Source of the DNA: Oscillospiraceae bacterium
GTDB lineage: Bacteria; Bacillota; Clostridia; TANB77; CAG-508
NCBI GenBank assembly: GCA_009778695.1
Contig: WRFS01000004.1
Coordinates: 1-64,000 of the forward strand
Reading direction: 5' to 3'
DNA: 64,000 nt
This document shows positions 33,437 through 46,803 of the stretch, piece by piece; position 1 is the stretch's first letter; every line of letters begins with the position of its first letter. The notes below the pieces were generated by a model. It was not told where the DNA came from, did not search any database, and worked only from the letters and a program-made list of their open reading frames with translations. A program made the position numbers and the translations under genes.

Positions 33437-35566
33437 TTACTTACCATTTTCCTCAATTGATTGTTCTATTAACGGAATAATTTCATCAATATCTTGTTCT
33501 TTACTAACAAATACCTTATAATCCCCATTGCATCTATGTCCTACTTTACTTATATCTTTTGTTATATTCTGCTCATCGTTTAATGTTCCTACCTTCATAT
33601 TTATAGTTATTACAATATATTTTTTATATAACTCTATATCAATGATGTTAGTTCTTCCTTTAAACGCAATATAATATTTCTTATAATCAATATCTATATC
33701 TCCTAATTTTAAAACTTCATCCTTTATTTTTAAATATAGTTCTCTAATATTTTCTCCAAAATTATTTAAATGATATTCTTCTGTATATTCTTCTTTTTCA
33801 AGAATAGGAATATATGATCGATCATCTTTGTCCGTTTCACAAATATCTAACATTTTTTCTATCTGTGATATTAAAAATTCTTTTCTTTCTTTTATCTTAT
33901 TTATATCCCATTTTTCACCAGTAACACTATAGTCTGAAACTATCTTTATTGTTGTCTCAAAAGTAGTAAATCCACTCTTTATTTCTCCATTTTTATCTAA
34001 CCCTTTATATGTTTTTATTTTTTCACTAAATCCTTTATTTAAAGCTTCTTTATTTTTTACATCCGATAATAATGCCATATTCCCTAATGTATCCAATACT
34101 TCCTTCCCTTCAGCTTCATTAATATAATCCCAATCCTTTTCTGATTTAAATGCTTTGGGTAATATATGATCCATATGCAATTTATTATCAATATTAATAA
34201 AAGTGGTATTCATATTTTCTCTTAACTCATAATCTAACGATAACATCAATGGCTTTAACCATTTTTCCCAATAAACATATTCCCCATTTAAAGCTTCATA
34301 CACTGCATTTATCATTCTTTTTTCTTGTATCATCCTTTCTAACATTTGCTCTATATCGTTTAGGTCCTTTTTATTAACTATATCTGCAATAACATTAAAT
34401 GACATTTGCTTTATCTGGTTTAATGTTTTTCCAGAAATAAAAGCTATATAGAAAAATCTTCTCAAAATTTCAAATAGTTTTTCTTTATTTTCATAATTTA
34501 TATGGTATACAGATGTTAATGCCGTAGTTATATATGCTCTCCATGGTAAATATAATAAACTATAAATTACATTATTTTCTGATTTTAACACTTCTCTCAT
34601 TGATTCCGCAAAAGTTTTCATGTCAGAAATGATATCTTTTACTTTACCCTTATTAATTATAGCTCGTAATTCATCTGTCATTTGTTTAGTTGGATTAGAT
34701 TTTAATTTATAATACTCATAATTAACCATAAATTCATCTAGTTTAAAATCATATTCATTGGCTATATTTTCAATAGCCATCCAATCTGATTCAAAAGCTT
34801 CTTTCCCATCAACATCTTTTTCATCATATTCCCCTAACATATATGCTTTTATTATATCAGAAGGTGATAAATTCAATCCCCTATCATTCATTACTTGAAA
34901 TAGTTTTATCGCAAACGATTCTTTGTTGCATACTATTTTTATAATATTTACATTATAAAATATGTAATTAACAAATTCTCCTCTTTCATCTTCAGATAAA
35001 CTTAATAATTTATCATAAAAAAATTTAGCAGTATTTTTATATTTATATTCCGGTTCATCCTTTTTTAATTCTTTATCTGTTGGCTTTTCTAAATTGTTAA
35101 AATTGTCGACATTTATAATACAATTTTTAAATGTTGTATTATAATTTTTATATGATTGCAACTGAAGCCTTTCAAAACCATTTTCATTGTTTATTCTACT
35201 TTCTATTGTAGCTTTTCTAACAATTTTCTTCTCGGTTGTCAATTCTACGCTTGCATTTATATTAGGAAAAGATTTAGAAAGAACATTTAACAAAATCATT
35301 AACGTTGTTATTCTTTGTTGCCCATCTATTAAATCGTGATACATTTCTCCGTTATTAACAACTACTATAGAACCTAAAAAATAACAATCATTTCCTTCAC
35401 TTCTTTTATAAAATTCATTATATAAATCTTCCCATAATTCTTCTAAATGTTCATCAATCCAACTATACTGCCTTTGATAGTTTGGTATTCTATAAATTCT
35501 ATCACAACTAAAAATTTCACTTATCGTTAAATTTTGTGGATCAAATGTATCTGAATTGCTTGCCAT
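33437..35566 (-). CDS. GmrSD-like DUF262/HNH protein with DUF5655-like C-terminus
   Basis: 709 residues. N-terminal DUF262 (ParB-like) domain: RIYRIPNYQRQYSWIDEHLEELWEDL, FLGSIVVVNN, HDLIDGQQRITTLMILL with the catalytic-type DGQQR. DUF1524-type HNH near residues 450-510: 'LHMDHILPKAF', then LGNMALLSDVKN and NKGFSEK. The C-terminus (IRELYLKIKDEVLKLGDIDIDYKKYYIAFKG) resembles DUF5655. GmrSD enzymes are type IV restriction nucleases that cut modified (glucosylated) phage DNA. The gene follows hsdR by about 20 bases on the same strand, so it is part of the restriction locus. Confidence 0.88.
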   Translation of the reverse strand: MASNSDTFDPQNLTISEIFSCDRIYRIPNYQRQYSWIDEHLEELWEDLYNEFYKRSEGNDCYFLGSIVVVNNGEMYHDLIDGQQRITTLMILLNVLSKSFPNINASVELTTEKKIVRKATIESRINNENGFERLQLQSYKNYNTTFKNCIINVDNFNNLEKPTDKELKKDEPEYKYKNTAKFFYDKLLSLSEDERGEFVNYIFYNVNIIKIVCNKESFAIKLFQVMNDRGLNLSPSDIIKAYMLGEYDEKDVDGKEAFESDWMAIENIANEYDFKLDEFMVNYEYYKLKSNPTKQMTDELRAIINKGKVKDIISDMKTFAESMREVLKSENNVIYSLLYLPWRAYITTALTSVYHINYENKEKLFEILRRFFYIAFISGKTLNQIKQMSFNVIADIVNKKDLNDIEQMLERMIQEKRMINAVYEALNGEYVYWEKWLKPLMLSLDYELRENMNTTFINIDNKLHMDHILPKAFKSEKDWDYINEAEGKEVLDTLGNMALLSDVKNKEALNKGFSEKIKTYKGLDKNGEIKSGFTTFETTIKIVSDYSVTGEKWDINKIKERKEFLISQIEKMLDICETDKDDRSYIPILEKEEYTEEYHLNNFGENIRELYLKIKDEVLKLGDIDIDYKKYYIAFKGRTNIIDIELYKKYIVITINMKVGTLNDEQNITKDISKVGHRCNGDYKVFVSKEQDIDEIIPLIEQSIEENGK

Positions 35567-35587
35567 AAATATTCCTCCTAATTTATT

Positions 35588-38500
35588 CTACCCTACACAT
35601 TTTCTTGCATTTTCATTTATTTCTTCAATATCTTTTTTTATTGCCATAAATGTATTTATGTCATCTTCAAACACATCTGCTGGCGATCCTAACACATTAA
35701 ATGGCTGCTCCATCAACTCTTCCATAGATATAATACCATTTTTACTCACATATTCTATAAGCAATTTTACAAACTCAATTTGCTTTGTATTTAATCTATT
35801 ATCATTTATATATTTCGCAAATATTGAATTTGCAGTTTGTTTATCAAGTCCAACAATCTGCCTAACTACTTCTATAACACTTGTACTGCCAAAGGTGTTA
35901 TTAAAATCTTCTTTACTACCTAATTCTTCAAATAATATTCTTTCTATATCTCGTTTTTCTGATTTTGTTAGTTTTTTATTTTCTCTTATTTTAGTAATTG
36001 TTAGATTTTCCATATTACTTTCAAAATATTTTCTTACCTTTTTTCTATAATCAGAAAAATCATAAGATTTTGGCTTATATTCTTCTTTCTCGTCCATTAC
36101 AGTTACTGCTATCGTATCTGTAAAGTCTGTGTACATAGCCTTTCTGCCTTCATCTTCTATAAACTGTATTAGACTTCTAAGTTCTAAACGTGCTTTTTCT
36201 ATTTCAAAGAAACTTGATTCTATCCAATACCCCACTTCACAAGCTTTCATAATTAATTCAGATTTTTCTTTTATTTGTGGTACTGTTCCAATTTTTTTAA
36301 GTTGTTCTACAAGAGATGCTATTCCTCTTGCCTGCATATTTATTGTGAATCTTTTAATTTTTCTCGTCTGTAATGAAAATACTAAACTATCAAATCTTTT
36401 AGCAAACTCATCCGGTTCATTTGAGATAAATAATGGTGTTAAGTTTTCTTTAATTTCAGATTTTGATATTTCTGTTATAGTGTTCCAATTATCTGAAATT
36501 TTATATTTTTCTATATATTCTTTTTTAGCTTTAACAGCAAAACTTTCTGTGTTCAATTCATTAACTGCATCTATGAATTCTTGAATTAACTTTTTTCTAT
36601 ATTCTAAAAATTGTTCATTTGATTGATATTCCAGACTTTGTAATTCTATAATCAAATCTAATTTATAATTATATATTTTCTCCGTTAAACTTTCTAATAA
36701 TCCTGTTTCAATTCCTTTTTCATTTTCCGCAAAAAATTCAAAGTTTTTACAGCAATCAAAAATATAGAAACCCGTTTTGTCTTTTCCTAATCCATATAAA
36801 TCTGGACATAATCTTGTTCCTCTGCCTATCATTTGCCAAAACTTTATTTTAGATTTTATCGGTTTAAAAAACACTAAGTTTACAACCTCTGGCACATCAA
36901 TTCCTGTATCGAGCATATCTACTGAAATTGCTATCTGTGGAAATTTAGAAGTAATTTGAAAGTCTTCTATTAAGCTACTGGCATATTTAACTTTATTATC
37001 TATTAACCCTGCAAATCCGCCCTTATAATGCGGATATAGTTCATCAAATACTCTTACAATTTCTTCTGCATGTTTGTGATTTTTTGCAAATATTATTGTT
37101 TTGCCTAGCTTGTCTCCGCCTTCTACCTTTAACCCTTTTTCCATAACTGATTCTAATATTTTTGCAATAGTATCTCTATTAAACAGCCATGAGTTTATAC
37201 TGTTAGAGCTTAAATTATCTGGCATTTCATCTTCATCTTCAAATAAGTTTTCATATTCTTCTTTTTCTTCATCTGGTAGTTCGCTATAGGTAATTCCTCT
37301 ATCTAAAAAGTCTGTGTTTAGTTTGATAGTATTGTAATCTACTAAATAACCTTCTTTTACCGCTTCATCATATTCGTAGACAAATGTAGGAACGTCATTC
37401 TCTATCTCAAAAAATCTATATGTATTTTTATCTACATCGTTTCTAGGTGTTGCGGTTAGGCCAACTAATAGTCCGTCAAAATATTCAAATATTGCTTGAT
37501 ATTTTTTATAGATGCTTCTATGTGCTTCATCTATTATGATTAAGTCAAAATGTCCTGCACTAAATAATTTATTGCCATCTTTAGCCATTCTGCCATCAAT
37601 TTCACTCATCATTGTTTGGTAAGTAGAAAATACTATTCTGCTCTCTTCAGGATTATCTTTAGAATTTAATAAATTACAACAAGACATGTCTAGTAATAGT
37701 TTAACAAAATTCTTTTTAGCTTGCTTTACAAGTTCAATTCTATCTGCTAAAAATAATACGTTTTTTATCCAATTATTGTTTGTTAATACATCTACTAAGG
37801 AAATAGCTGTTCTTGTTTTTCCTGTTCCTGTTGCCATAACAAGTAAAGCCTTTCTATGTCCACTTTCAAATGCTTCACATACACTTTTTATCGCCTGTTG
37901 CTGATATGGTCTATTTGTAATATTTTCATTAATATATATTGATTTTAAGCTTCCCAGTGTATTTCTTCTATTTATTAAAGTTTGTAATTCAGATTGTGAA
38001 TAAAAACCTGATACAGTTCGTGGCGGATATTTTGTATCATCCCACATGTGTACGGTTCTTCCATTTGTATAATAAATTATAGGTCTTTGTGCAAATTGTT
38101 TTTCTAAACAATCTGCATATAGTTTTACTTGTTGCTTTCCAATTTTAGGGTCTACACTTGTTCTTTTGGCTTCCACAACCGCAAGTGGTTTTCCATCGTT
38201 GCCAAATAACACATAGTCTGCAAATCCTTTTTCTTCATTGTTTGGCATGCCTTGCAATTCTAATTCTTCTGTGATGTTTTTATCAAAATCCCAGCCTGCA
38301 AGTTTTAAGTCTAAGTCTATATACTGCTTTCTCGTTTGTTGTTCTGATATTGGTAATTCTTTATATAGCTCTTCTACATAGTTTTTATCGTAACGCTGAG
38401 CAAGCCATTTCATAAAGTCATGTAAGTATTTTAATGTGAGTATTGCTTCTTCTTTGCTGACTTTTTTATTATTATGTACTGCAAAGTTACCAAGTTTTAT

Positions 38501-38764
38501 GATATATGTAATTTCTGTAAATATGTCTTTGTCTATTATGTTTTTAAATGAAATATCATGAACTAAACTAGATAGTGCATTTTGGTATGGCATGCTTAAC
38601 TTATTATCATTTTCGTATATCCATTTAACTGCTATTTCTAATGCTCTTCTAGACAGAATAGCACATGATACAGGGCTTGTCTGCATACTTTTTTCCGCTT
38701 CAATTGTTGGCTCAGTGAAACTTTCAAATATATTATTATTTTTTAAAAATTCAAAATTTGACAT
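35588..38764 (-). CDS. hsdR: Type I restriction enzyme R subunit
   Basis: 1058 residues. ATP-driven translocase and nuclease of a type I system. DUF4145 at residues about 20-120 (SCAILSRRALEIAVKWIYE), PD-(D/E)XK nuclease (KGFADYVLFGNDGKPLAVVEAKRTS), helicase motif I ATGTGKTRTAISLVD, motif II DEAHRS (DLIIIDEAHRSIYKKY), LVGLTATPRND, motif VI region WQMIGRGTRLCPDL. The C-terminal region includes the EcoEI-R-like domain. It lies between hsdS (upstream, 10-base gap) and the DUF262 gene. Confidence 0.97.
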   Translation of the reverse strand: MSNFEFLKNNNIFESFTEPTIEAEKSMQTSPVSCAILSRRALEIAVKWIYENDNKLSMPYQNALSSLVHDISFKNIIDKDIFTEITYIIKLGNFAVHNNKKVSKEEAILTLKYLHDFMKWLAQRYDKNYVEELYKELPISEQQTRKQYIDLDLKLAGWDFDKNITEELELQGMPNNEEKGFADYVLFGNDGKPLAVVEAKRTSVDPKIGKQQVKLYADCLEKQFAQRPIIYYTNGRTVHMWDDTKYPPRTVSGFYSQSELQTLINRRNTLGSLKSIYINENITNRPYQQQAIKSVCEAFESGHRKALLVMATGTGKTRTAISLVDVLTNNNWIKNVLFLADRIELVKQAKKNFVKLLLDMSCCNLLNSKDNPEESRIVFSTYQTMMSEIDGRMAKDGNKLFSAGHFDLIIIDEAHRSIYKKYQAIFEYFDGLLVGLTATPRNDVDKNTYRFFEIENDVPTFVYEYDEAVKEGYLVDYNTIKLNTDFLDRGITYSELPDEEKEEYENLFEDEDEMPDNLSSNSINSWLFNRDTIAKILESVMEKGLKVEGGDKLGKTIIFAKNHKHAEEIVRVFDELYPHYKGGFAGLIDNKVKYASSLIEDFQITSKFPQIAISVDMLDTGIDVPEVVNLVFFKPIKSKIKFWQMIGRGTRLCPDLYGLGKDKTGFYIFDCCKNFEFFAENEKGIETGLLESLTEKIYNYKLDLIIELQSLEYQSNEQFLEYRKKLIQEFIDAVNELNTESFAVKAKKEYIEKYKISDNWNTITEISKSEIKENLTPLFISNEPDEFAKRFDSLVFSLQTRKIKRFTINMQARGIASLVEQLKKIGTVPQIKEKSELIMKACEVGYWIESSFFEIEKARLELRSLIQFIEDEGRKAMYTDFTDTIAVTVMDEKEEYKPKSYDFSDYRKKVRKYFESNMENLTITKIRENKKLTKSEKRDIERILFEELGSKEDFNNTFGSTSVIEVVRQIVGLDKQTANSIFAKYINDNRLNTKQIEFVKLLIEYVSKNGIISMEELMEQPFNVLGSPADVFEDDINTFMAIKKDIEEINENARKCVG

Positions 38765-38774
38765 CTATTTTCCC

Positions 38775-40367
38775 CTATATTGTTTCGTTTTTGTGATATT
38801 TTATTATATCTTCATCTTTTATCTTAGAAAAATTTTTCTTCCTAGGTGAAACGTACCATGGCGTATTTTTATTATGTGTTAAATCAACTAATTGGCTTGC
38901 TGTCATATCTCCATATTTTTCTATGGTTTTATCTATTATATTAATTTTATTTGAACCATCTTCTGTCGCCATTATTCGTTTTTTTATTGATGATGCTAAC
39001 TTTTGCGATACTGAAAGTTCTTTTTTATCATCTGATTTTTCTTTACCTCTACTTTTATATCTTTCATTTACAGTCTGTACTACTGGCCCATATCTAAAAG
39101 CATATATATCGTCTGAAAATAGTTTCGCATTATGCTTTACCAAGTACTCCGCATAACAAAAATATGCTAATTTTTCCAGCTTTAAATGTGTGCATATAAC
39201 TTTGCTTAGAATATATTTAGCTATATCTATACCTTCTAATCCTATAAATATTACTTCTTCTTGTGTCTCTTTTTCTATACCAAAGTATTTATTCATTAAT
39301 GCACCTTGGCATTTTTTTAGTTTTTCCAGCGATGATTTCAGGTTGGTTTTTAGCTTGTCGATGTGTTGTACAAACGAAGCAAATTCATTTTGTAATTTTA
39401 TTGGTGGAATAATAATATTAATATCCTGTAACTCTTGTGCATTTATATTAGCTTGTCCTATAATTGATTTGCACATATTTTGTAATGTAGTTTTTCCATA
39501 TTTAGAATTTAAAACTGCTGATAAGTATTCTGGAATAGCTTTATTATTAACTCTAACTCTAATTAAATACCCTGCCATAATCATTTCTGTTTTTTCTTTG
39601 AATACACATGTTTTCCCAACCAATTCTTTACTATTAGTTCTATTAAATAATATGTCTCCTTCTCTTACTACATATTTTTCAAATTCATTATCCGCTATAT
39701 TTATATATTTTATATCTGTTAAATCTAATTTTCCATCATAAGTTATGTTATTCATTCTCAAGTAAATATACTTCCCATGTTCTGTTGACTTTGCACTCGT
39801 TCCGTATTTCACATCTCTTACCACATCTCTAATAGTACCAGCTTCAAACCCTCTACTATTTTTGGCAATATCACCGAACATCTCAACAAATCGAGCTTTA
39901 ACTAGCTCGTCTAAGTTATTTAATTGTTTTTGTTTGATTTCTATAATATTTTGCATTTTATCTAATATATTTACAACTTTTATCTGTTCTTTTATATTTA
40001 TATTTGGAATCTTAATATCTGTTAAATTATTTAATTTAATATATTTTATCACTCCACCAATAGCCTGTTGTCTTAATTTATCTATTTTATTTTCTAAAAA
40101 GTAAAATAAATATTTGTTGGAAAGTTTATCTGTGTTATTACTTTCAATTATATAAGTCCTTTGATATGCATCAAATCTTCCATTATAATATTTTACATTT
40201 AAATCTCCATTCCCTGCTACTAATACACATTCACAATCATATGAATATGCGTCTATTTTCAATGGTTCTTTTGAACATGTAAAAAATAAATACTTTCCAT
40301 TTTCGCTTGAAGCATTTGCATCTAATTTTCCTGTTTTTATTGTTACTAATTTGCCTAGTTTACTCAT
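38775..40367 (-). CDS. hsdS: Type I specificity subunit HsdS fused to a Panacea (SocA-like) domain
   Basis: 530 residues. Two target-recognition domains (about 1-150 and 175-350) each end in the conserved helix (KLNNLTDIKIPNINIKEQIKVVNILDKMQNIIEIKQKQL; INAQELQDINIIIPPIKLQNEFASFVQHIDKLKTNLKSSLEKL) that sets methylation specificity. After residue about 380 the protein continues with a Panacea/DUF4065-like domain: 'HLKLEKLAYFCYAEYLVKHNAKLFSDDIYAFRYGPVVQTVNERYKS' and TASQLVDLTHNKNTPWY. Panacea domains act as antitoxins that neutralise diverse toxins. Such a fusion to HsdS is unusual. It overlaps the hsdM stop (TAATG). Confidence 0.88.
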   Translation of the reverse strand: MSKLGKLVTIKTGKLDANASSENGKYLFFTCSKEPLKIDAYSYDCECVLVAGNGDLNVKYYNGRFDAYQRTYIIESNNTDKLSNKYLFYFLENKIDKLRQQAIGGVIKYIKLNNLTDIKIPNINIKEQIKVVNILDKMQNIIEIKQKQLNNLDELVKARFVEMFGDIAKNSRGFEAGTIRDVVRDVKYGTSAKSTEHGKYIYLRMNNITYDGKLDLTDIKYINIADNEFEKYVVREGDILFNRTNSKELVGKTCVFKEKTEMIMAGYLIRVRVNNKAIPEYLSAVLNSKYGKTTLQNMCKSIIGQANINAQELQDINIIIPPIKLQNEFASFVQHIDKLKTNLKSSLEKLKKCQGALMNKYFGIEKETQEEVIFIGLEGIDIAKYILSKVICTHLKLEKLAYFCYAEYLVKHNAKLFSDDIYAFRYGPVVQTVNERYKSRGKEKSDDKKELSVSQKLASSIKKRIMATEDGSNKINIIDKTIEKYGDMTASQLVDLTHNKNTPWYVSPRKKNFSKIKDEDIIKYHKNETI

Positions 40368-41816
40368 TACAAAATCCCATCCAATTCTTTTAATTTTTGT
40401 TGAAGTTCGCTTTCTAAATCTATAATTTCTTTGTAAATTTCCTTTGTATCTCTGTATTCTACTACTTCATGCTTAATTTCTTTATACTTATTTATAGACA
40501 AATCGTAATCGTTTTTTACAATCTCATCCTTATTTACAAAAAATGACTTGTCCGTTCTCTTTCTTTTTAATTCTTTTCCTAAATCGTTATATCTTTTTAT
40601 AATATTTGGTATATCATTTTCCTTAATTGGATTTCTTTGATCGTCCAAACTAAATCCATCAGCTGTCATGTCATAAAACCACACTTTATCCGTTGCTCCA
40701 ACTGTGGTTTTAGTAAATATTATTATAGCCGTAGAAACACCTGCATATGGCTTGAATACACCGCTTGGCATGCTTATTATCGCCTTCTAATTTATTATTT
40801 TCTATAATCTCTTTTTTAATAGCTTTATGTGCATTAGAACTGCCAAATAATACTCCGTCCGGCACTATTGAAGCACATCTTCCACCTGTTATTAATATTC
40901 TTAAAAATAGAGCTAAAAATAATAATTCTGTCTTTTTAGTTTTCGTAATTGCTAATAAATCTTTTGAAATTCTCTCATCATCTATTGAACCCTTAAATGG
41001 TGGGTTTGCCAATACCAATGTATATTTACTTCTTTCTTCGTTATCTTCTGAAAGTGAATCTTTATATAATATATTTGGATTTTCTATACCATGTTGCATT
41101 AAGTTCATTGCACCGATTCTAAGCATAGTTCTGTCCATGTCAAAACCATAAAACATTGTATTGTTAAAATGCTCTCTTTTATTTATATCATTAAATAAAG
41201 ATTTGTTATTATCTCTTAAGTATTCCCCTGCTCCTACCAAAAATCCTGAACTTCCACAGGCAGGGTCCACTATAACATCATTCGACGTTGGTTTCATTAA
41301 TTCTACCATCATTTTTATTATGTGCCTTGGTGTTCTAAATTGACCATTTTTACCTGCCGTACTTAATTTAGAAAGCAAGTATTCGTATACATCTCCCTTT
41401 GTGTCTCTATCTCTCATCTTTATGTTATCCATTGCGGTAACAATTCTTTGCAATATAATTGGTGTAGGAATAATGAATATTGCATCCTCCATATATTTTG
41501 CATATGTAGAATTCTTATCTGTATGTAAGTTCTTTATAAACGGAAATACTTCTGACTGTACTGTTTTATACATTTTCGAAGCTTCAAAATCTTTGAAAAT
41601 TCCCCATCTGCAATTTTGATGCTTTTTATCAAATATTCTTTTAGTTTTTATTCCTAAAAGTAAGTCATTCTTTTCCCTTGCATTTTCTATTTCATCTAAA
41701 TCTTTTATAAATAATAAATATGTTATTTGCTCAATAACAGTTAAAGGATTTGTTACTCCTCCAGTCCAAAATGTTTCCCATATTCTATCTATTTTAGCTT
41801 TAGTATCCGTATCCAC
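40367..41816 (-). pseudogene. hsdM: Type I methyltransferase subunit HsdM, one-base frameshift
   Basis: N-terminal frame 40710-41816 (368 residues): helical HsdM_N domain, then the N6-adenine methyltransferase with AdoMet motif DPACGSSGFLVGAGEYL and catalytic NPPF (LVLANPPFKGS). It runs to IIENNKLEG and then into a wrong frame. The remainder (40367-40771) starts with MPSGVFKPYAGVSTAIIIFTK and carries the C-terminal part. At 40781-40784 the minus strand reads GAAGGCGATAATAAGC; removal of one G gives E-A-I-I-S-M-P-S-G-V, the family sequence. So one inserted base at 40783/40784 splits the gene. If real, the locus cannot methylate unless suppressed, which would make an active HsdR dangerous; error or phase change are alternatives. 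Confidence 0.85.
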
Positions 41817-44467: not shown

Positions 44468-44496
44468 TTGATTTTCAAGAAACATTTTTATATAAT
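44468..44496 (+). promoter_or_regulatory. Promoter of the DUF3800 gene
   Basis: TTGATT (44468-44473), 17 bases, TATAAT (44491-44496), about 30 bases before the start codon. Confidence 0.75.
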
Positions 44497-44528: not shown

Positions 44529-45248
44529 ATGAACTTATACATTGATGAGTCAGGAAGTATTGATATTAAAAAAAATAATTTTAATAAATATTTCATTATA
44601 TCGGTATTAATGACAAATGATAAAGATAAACTTAAAACTATATATAAAAGATTTGTTAGTAAAAATATGAACAAATTAAAGCAATTAGATGAAGATTTTA
44701 AAATGTTTTCAAAAGATGGATCTTTTACAGAATTAAAAGGTTCTTGTTTTGATAGAGAATTAAAAAACGAATTTTTAGATTATTTTTGTAGAAATAATCT
44801 ATTACAAGTAAGATATATTATATTAAATAATGATAATTTAGAAGAAAAGTTTACTAAAAATAAAGCTCGTACATTTAATTATTCGATGAAAATATTTTTG
44901 CTTAATTCTATACATATGAAAATGATTACCAACACACAATTATATCTACAAATAGATGAACGAAATATTAAAACAGATTCTAAATTTTCCCTTGAAGATT
45001 ATTTAAATCAAGAATTAGTTCTTGATTTAAATTTAATAGAAGATATAAAAGTCGATTATTTTAATTCTGAAAATAATGCTCTAATACAGATTTCTGATGT
45101 TTTTGCCAATATTAAATATTCTAATTTAAAAACTAAGGGAAAATATAGTGCCAAGTTACATCAATTAGAAAAAGAAGGATACATTTTAAAAGATTTTAAA
45201 TTCCCTAAAGCTTTTATCCCACCCAAAGTATTAAAAAATAAAATATAG
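44529..45248 (+). CDS. DUF3800-domain protein
   Basis: 239 residues. Opens with the family signature MNLYIDESGSIDI and has the later conserved acidic region 'LYLQIDERNIKTDSKFSLEDYLNQEL' and 'VDYFNSENNALIQISDVFANIKYSNL' (the IQ..D..A motif). The fold is RNase H-like with conserved Asp residues, so a nuclease or structured-RNA role is suspected; the family is frequent in mobile and defence regions. Start at ATG 44529 behind AAAAGAGGAACT. It is followed directly by two related structured RNAs (45283-45377 and 45484-45574); RNA motifs near DUF3800 genes have been catalogued as DUF3800-I to -XI. Confidence 0.88.
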   Translation: MNLYIDESGSIDIKKNNFNKYFIISVLMTNDKDKLKTIYKRFVSKNMNKLKQLDEDFKMFSKDGSFTELKGSCFDRELKNEFLDYFCRNNLLQVRYIILNNDNLEEKFTKNKARTFNYSMKIFLLNSIHMKMITNTQLYLQIDERNIKTDSKFSLEDYLNQELVLDLNLIEDIKVDYFNSENNALIQISDVFANIKYSNLKTKGKYSAKLHQLEKEGYILKDFKFPKAFIPPKVLKNKI

Positions 45249-45282: not shown

Positions 45283-45377
45283 AAGTTAGCATAACAGTAA
45301 ATCTAAAAAAAGATCTATAATATTAGTAAGTACTATGTAATTAGTATATCTTTTTTAGTAATTATGCTAACTTTTAT
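45283..45377 (+). ncRNA. Structured RNA E1 downstream of DUF3800 gene
   Basis: Nested stems: AAGTTAGCATAA / TTATGCTAACTT (outer, 45283-45294 with 45362-45373), CTAAAAAAGAT-type middle stem, a one-sided internal loop ending TTAGTAAG, and hairpin TACTA-TGTAAT-TAGTA (45331-45346). A TTTTATTTT tail follows. Architecture and loop bases match E2, with compensatory changes in stems. No clear promoter of its own; it may come from read-through of the DUF3800 transcript. Confidence 0.7.
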
Positions 45378-45452
45378 TTTACAAAATTAGTTATTTTTCG
45401 ATAAGAATTTTTTCATTTATTTTTACAAAAATATTACAATTTTTAAAAACTG

Positions 45453-45481
45453 TTGACAAATTCATAAAAATAGTTTAAAAT
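45453..45481 (+). promoter_or_regulatory. Promoter of small RNA E2
   Basis: TTGACA (45453-45458), exactly 17 bases, TAAAAT (45476-45481). Predicted transcription start at about 45488, at the beginning of the outer stem of E2. Confidence 0.8.
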
Positions 45482-45483
45482 GT

Positions 45484-45574
45484 AAATAGCTAACAATAAG
45501 TCCTTTGAATATGCCGTTATCTAGGTAAGTGCTATGTGTTAGCATCATATTAAAGGCAATTAGCTATTTTTTTT
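45484..45574 (+). ncRNA. Small structured RNA E2 with own promoter and terminator
   Basis: About 87 bases with no reading frame. Outer stem AAATAGCTAA / TTAGCTATTT continues into TTTTTTT and doubles as terminator; middle stem CCTTTGAATATG / CATATTAAAGG; bulge with TAGGTAAG; hairpin TGCTA-TGTGT-TAGCA. Relative to E1 the hairpin changes on both sides (TGCTA/TAGCA against TACTA/TAGTA), as expected for selected base pairing. The nearby DUF3800 gene suggests one of the DUF3800-associated RNA motifs. Confidence 0.75.
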
Positions 45575-45656
45575 GTAATTATAAGTAATTTTAAATTGCT
45601 TATTTTTTTGTATCAACACGGTTTTATTCCACCCCAAATTACATTTTTATTAAATA

Positions 45657-46567: not shown

Positions 46568-46638
46568 ATTTTCCTCCTTCTTTTTCAATCAATTATAGTA
46601 TAGTATAAAAATAATGTCAAATAAACGTGAAAAAAAAT

Positions 46639-46770
46639 GAGGGTGTCCTGCAATATCATTCTGAGCCTTTCTACGAAGATTTTACTTGCGAAGAATCTCG
46701 TGAAATATAAGATCCTTCATAGCAAGGATTTGTAAGAAGTGGTTCAGGATGACAATTCTAGGACGCCCTC
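46639..46770. repeat. Composite inverted repeat with CATTCTGAG core; likely terminator
   Basis: Outer arms GAGGGTGTCCTGCAAT (46639 on) and ATTCTAGGACGCCCTC (to 46770) followed by ATTTTT. The core (CATTCTGAGCC ... TTCAGGATGACA) belongs to the same family as 11232-11333, while the arms resemble the element at 5496-5603. It follows the stop of the 46804-47937 gene. Confidence 0.75.
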
Positions 46771-46803
46771 ATTTTTATTCAATTAATTTTTATCGTTATC
46801 ATT

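Follow-up and report, generated by a model that had tools for sequence, protein, structure and literature searches.

Tandem structured RNAs beside a DUF3800 gene of an Oscillospiraceae bacterium: an RNA family of bacteria and phages which may restrain an RNase HII-like protein

The window, i.e., the whole stretch of 64,000 nucleotides from an Oscillospiraceae bacterium which was analysed here, contains a DUF3800 gene, followed on the same strand by two tandem structured RNA elements, designated E1 and E2 (Table 1). Both RNAs had been noticed in a preliminary description of this DNA and were borne out, with boundaries corrected according to the RNA model. They are the only two copies of the RNA in the genome, and they fold moderately better than dinucleotide shuffles (z of -3.2 for E1 and -2.4 for E2). 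E1 is probably located in the 3' UTR of the DUF3800 mRNA. E2 had been proposed as a complete small RNA gene; this was judged to be right. Its promoter was found as described and is the top promoter-like site of the region. As to the T-run terminator ascribed to E2, a run of eight T (45567–45574) follows the outer stem, but a terminator scan of the region called neither this run nor the hairpin listed in Table 1. Since homologues usually possess a separate terminator-like hairpin downstream of the RNA (72/85 loci in a crude test), the listed hairpin was rated an equally good candidate.

Table 1. Features of the DUF3800 module in the window
Feature	Position	Strand	Evidence
Promoter-like site of DUF3800 gene, TTGATT-17-TATAAT	44468..44496	+	10/12, consensus match only
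DUF3800 gene	44529..45248	+	start MNLYIDESG after AGAGGA; longest ORF from 44514; Pfam PF12686, E 5.5e-11
E1, proximal RNA copy, lacking a promoter	45285..45371	+	model R1 61.7 bits (not independent, E1 being part of the R1 training set); promoter score 7/12; copy-1 position conserved in nine tandem loci
E2 promoter, TTGACA-17-TAAAAT	45453..45481	+	11/12; placement relative to RNA conserved among homologues
E2, distal copy of the RNA (independent small RNA gene, folded as a three-way junction)	45484..45569	+	model R1 91.2 bits (not independent, E2 being part of the R1 training set); covariation
Candidate E2 terminator, AT-rich hairpin + 7 T	45581..45609	+	read by eye from the sequence

A defence island adjoins the module (33437–41816, minus strand) and encodes a GmrSD-like protein, HsdR, HsdS and HsdM; the last is split into two overlapping ORFs (40367–40771 and 40710–41816) and is therefore either broken or misassembled.

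Both RNAs belong to a conserved family. A scan with the core pattern AACARTAAGTC...GCCNTTNTCNNGGTAAG yielded 81 loci besides the window, 16 of them viral and 65 from genomes; the pattern itself selects the core, which is thus conserved partly by construction, while the stems lie outside of it. The hosts were mostly Lachnospiraceae, Peptoniphilaceae and other Clostridia; Treponema/Sphaerochaeta accounted for some, and Aerococcus and Alistipes were each represented by a single MAG contig so labelled. Many carriers are gut bacteria and phages. A first viral pattern had matched four near-identical phage contigs with neither stems nor DUF3800 genes, which were dismissed as chance matches. The RNA unit is about 85 nt long, occurs in one or two copies per locus and has nested pairing. 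Unsupervised folding of 72 aligned sequences (alignment A1) gave P1 as the outer stem, then an asymmetric internal loop (CARUAAGU/YAA), P2, P2b, P3 (a 2-bp hairpin with the loop NUUNUCNN), a UAAG linker and a hairpin P4. Compensatory changes were present in 20 of the 25 base pairs, which was not reached in any of 500 shuffles, and comprised 305 cells of the alignment versus 93.5 in shuffles. Paired cells amounted to 95.4%, dropping to 24–40% when the pairing was slid by 1–3 columns. The preservation of pairing despite changes on both sides of the stems, as seen originally between E1 and E2, holds for the 72 homologous RNAs and goes beyond chance.

A divergent version of the RNA was recognized by eye in Streptococcus satellite phages, Listeria phages and a Listeria plasmid. 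Model R1 missed the RNAs of the Streptococcus satellite phages, the Listeria phages and locus L014; these were read by eye before they entered a joint alignment (A4) and the model R2 derived from it, so that R2 gives no independent evidence for them. In A4, 78% of the cells were paired (0/500 shuffles). In folding, RNA candidates in L169 and L168 surpassed shuffles little or not at all, and R2 gave no match to a candidate read by eye in L258 (Fusobacterium). Downstream (3') of a divergent DUF3800 gene in L267, at about 1918–2060, two similar tandem hairpins (CGCACACRCACAGGGTGACTATTCGC) were seen by eye, possibly another type of DUF3800 RNA.

Weinberg et al. reportedly described in 2017 RNA motifs DUF3800-I to -XI near DUF3800 genes, and the Rfam entries RF02969 and RF02968 are DUF3800-I and DUF3800-IX, respectively. 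E1 and E2 had been thought to be members or a new variant of these motifs. Searches with the Rfam models, including DUF3800-I, produced no match at the gathering threshold for the RNAs of the window or their homologues, and a scan of the window region with E values up to 10 showed no DUF3800 family; sub-threshold matches to other families were weak and unrelated and were discarded. Of the two possibilities, the new variant is thus retained. The RNA resembles the known motifs as a structured RNA adjoining a DUF3800 gene (in the window and at 59 of the 81 loci), but it differs in its outer half with the CARUAAGU/YAA internal loop, in its two-arm junction and in being tied to another DUF3800 subfamily. 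R2 gave no more than a weak partial match in one Rfam DUF3800-I copy, that of L175 (E 0.006), which occupies the same terminase-portal site as many phage copies (see below) and shares, by eye, a UAAGC-hairpin core. The RNA is a variant of the known association of DUF3800 genes with RNAs, outside the DUF3800 families as represented by the Rfam models.

At the 59 loci a DUF3800 ORF or a remnant is always on the same strand as the RNA, usually ending 38–320 nt before it; in about eight loci DUF3800 starts just after the RNA. The RNA of L014, as read by eye, is on the strand opposite to DUF3800. Searches from the protein side gave a similar picture. Seven relatives of the DUF3800 gene were found among 391 class-level genomes, six of which were flanked by one or two RNA copies. 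In viruses, a single DUF3800 protein as query found nothing, and loci were recovered with a protein alignment as query: RNA matches were present at 13/13 loci of 39% identity or more and at 9/13 more distant ones, with two more recognized by eye and two stopping at the contig edge. Each of the 24 viral DUF3800 loci which could be tested thus has the RNA beside it (22 by model, two by eye). When RNA model R2 and protein profile A2 were both applied to the same 398 phylum-level genomes, RNA was detected in six, protein in six, both in five, and in 5/5 they were adjacent (Fisher 4e-10), although only three of the shared genomes (G507, G524 and G705) are independent, since G000 and G040 supplied training sequences. 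The almost constant presence of an adjacent RNA in protein-side searches indicates that RNA and DUF3800 are functionally tied.

PF12686 was the sole Pfam family above its cut-off in the DUF3800 protein of the window (43.8 bits; gathering cut-off 21). Homologues begin with MNIYIDESG, and in 36 aligned proteins D11, E12, D148, R150, N151 and D195, among others, were invariant. Strong purifying selection is evident from dN/dS values of 0.04–0.13 in four unsaturated pairs. An AlphaFold2 model (pLDDT 89) had RNase HII/H2 proteins as closest structures (Foldseek E 1.4e-5), with Z scores, determined with VIA, of 11.8 for 8yjz_H and 11.2 for 1eke, and a lower value of 8.6 for PIWI. A type-2 RNase H (RNase HII) fold is thus predicted with high confidence, in agreement with the RNase H fold already reported for DUF3800 (PMC10910872). 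Apart from the fold, with Z of about 11, the conserved acidic residues on strands one and four and in the final core helix appear to follow the order known from RNase HII/RNase H2, D11, E12, D148 and D195 being candidates for the catalytic tetrad; the DUF3800 protein differs by its low identity (7–15%), extra helices, a putative RNA partner and an accessory and mobile distribution. PADLOC contained no model matching the protein, and a literature search found no function of DUF3800; the papers found list the protein and RNAs only as associated.

Among 84 RNA copies the mean score of the best promoter was 9.7/12, compared to 7.3 in shuffles; the spacer was 17 in 70/84, and in most copies 9 or 11 nt separate the end of the -10 box from AACA. 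In nine tandem pairs, copy 2 had a promoter in 9/9, and copy 1, which lies tens of bases 3' of the stop codon, had none or a much weaker one. On the protein tree, the dual-copy layout, including that of the window, makes up one group, supported at 93/95. Six loci of an upstream type (L024, L060, L071, L073, L090, L093) showed the order promoter, RNA, hairpin with T-run, Shine-Dalgarno sequence and DUF3800, with no space for a second promoter before DUF3800; the window differs from these in having the RNA downstream.

Many phage copies are flanked by the genes for the terminase large subunit and the portal, to which they run antisense. Comparison of similar phages with 86–89% identity, one with an empty gap (L182) and one with an occupied gap (L052), revealed a 959-bp insert, which extends from 9 bp past the terminase stop to the start of portal; from this clean insertion it follows that gene and RNA move jointly as a cassette. 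In related phages this gap either contains nothing or is taken up by different cargo, which marks the site as a general accessory one; homing to a fixed target was rejected for the same reason. Matches named DUF in this gap were antisense portal frames, an artefact of stop-to-stop queries. Beside one phage DUF3800 module a tmRNA-like Rfam match of 60.7 bits was noted (L157, 4383–4768).

The RNA also occurs alone. In 16 of 20 genomes checked for apparently solitary RNAs, DUF3800 was not detectable, and incompleteness of MAGs may account for a few of these. In Lachnoanaerobaculum the RNA persists in L038 and L072, while the relative L096 has a truncated DUF3800; the RNA of L058 and L084 likewise persists when compared to L086. 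In both comparisons promoter and RNA are 85–98% identical, whereas the 100 bp upstream are about 50% identical and unalignable. In G395 a single DUF3800 and a single RNA were detected, each on a contig of its own. Two phage contigs (L016, 8538–8621; L019, 1381–1464) contain RNAs lacking a promoter, with no DUF3800 in the available sequence; the RNAs are 94% identical and their flanks 53–79%. They may be decoys, for which phage pseudo-ToxI is a precedent (PMC3475682). Another solitary RNA of the superfamily (L261, 1501–1591) has, by eye, a -10-like site and a terminator, with no DUF3800 within 3 kb.

The suggestion of the preliminary description that the DUF3800 protein may bind or process the RNAs is now much better supported, by co-occurrence, cassette transfer, the nuclease fold and the RNA-first layout. 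We would go further and propose, at what we regard as an even chance, that a trans-acting RNA binds and restrains a DUF3800 nuclease, the two forming a module comparable to, but outside, the known type III toxin-antitoxin systems. DUF3800 would be an RNase HII-like nuclease, held inactive at rest by the bound structured RNA; E2, transcribed from its own strong promoter, would provide RNA in excess over protein. Lying at the end of the DUF3800 mRNA, E1 would probably serve for recognition or trimming of the protein's own message, or for supplying RNA in step with the protein. If the RNA supply failed, e.g., by loss of the element or takeover by a phage, the free nuclease would attack nucleic acid of the cell or the phage, and the module would act as a type III toxin-antitoxin or abortive-infection system with an unrelated protein. 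A promoter-RNA-terminator-toxin order has been described for type III systems (PMC5086642) and is matched by the six upstream-type loci; the tandem copies, the expected RNA excess, the orphan RNAs and the mobility among phages, plasmids and chromosomes are likewise reminiscent of ToxIN, CptIN and TenpIN/AbiQ. Unlike these, the DUF3800 protein is predicted to be RNase HII-like and does not belong to the ToxN/AbiQ, CptN or TenpN families, and the RNA consists of a junction of about 85 nt in place of an array of short pseudoknot repeats; at most loci it lies downstream and has a promoter of its own.

The RNA family, its linkage to DUF3800 and the prediction of a nuclease fold rest on good support. 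Covariation, linkage, RNA-first loci, the promoters of copy 2, RNAs outliving the protein, the unlinked pair of G395, insertion of the cassette as a unit, the RNase HII fold, purifying selection and the defence neighbourhood all count for a nuclease restrained by RNA; the downstream position at most loci, unlike ToxIN, and the lack of a short-repeat array count against it. Inhibition of the nuclease by the RNA is preferred here to activation, with about balanced confidence. An activating cofactor or scaffold of the nuclease, guide-like as in HEARO/OMEGA or CRISPR effectors and part of an RNA-directed defence or homing element, appears rather unlikely. It would accord with the RNase H fold, with the presence of DUF3800 proteins at some Cas12a2 (V-A2) (PMC10910872) and VI-F CRISPR loci (PMC12669027), and with the terminase-portal site common to phage copies, including one with a Rfam DUF3800-I RNA, and a cofactor RNA would be co-inherited as well; but the conserved RNA has no variable, unpaired guide segment, its loops being near-invariant and the promoter abutting the outer stem, no Rfam HEARO match was found in the window, and the portal gap takes varied cargo. 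RNAs without any DUF3800 are common, and loss of the protein with retention of the RNA would fit an antidote better than a cofactor, although orphan RNAs could serve another role.

A role of the RNA chiefly in cis, as a 3' UTR or leader which controls or stabilises the DUF3800 mRNA, perhaps by autoregulation through the nuclease, would suit the promoterless first copies just past the stop codon; we consider it improbable in view of the consensus promoters at fixed distance from single and distal copies, the opposite-strand RNA of L014 (by eye) and the orphan and unlinked RNAs. Hardly probable, too, is an RNA with its own function in host or phage, e.g., as decoy or regulatory sRNA, with DUF3800 as a separate partner cleaving it: the conserved orphans, including the phage pair, speak for this, and the adjacent RNA found almost always in protein-side searches speaks against it.

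For the restrained nuclease, a wider reading may be offered tentatively, with somewhat more doubt than belief, namely that the DUF3800 proteins of Bacillota, Fusobacteriota and Spirochaetota are RNase HII-like toxins under the control of RNAs and make up a large class, disseminated by phages and satellites, in which orphan RNAs would be retained as antidotes and the phage copies would act as decoys. If true, this would be an undescribed RNA-antitoxin system with a new toxin fold. The single RNA architecture at nearly every tested protein of the clade, the predicted fold, the RNA-first layout and the orphans provide a concrete and testable hypothesis on the function of DUF3800, which bears on phage defence as well as on the DUF3800 proteins accessory to CRISPR V-A2 and VI-F loci.

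Some minor observations concern the surroundings. At the C-terminus of the HsdS-like type I specificity protein of the window (38775–40367, minus strand) Pfam identified an antitoxin domain, SocA/Panacea (E 1.6e-17), and a stand-alone Panacea protein flanks the orphan RNA in L105. At 46628–46781 of the window a palindromic MITE-like repeat of about 150 bp with inverted ends of 27 nt was found, of which the genome has about 15 copies at 91–95% identity and 46 matches overall.
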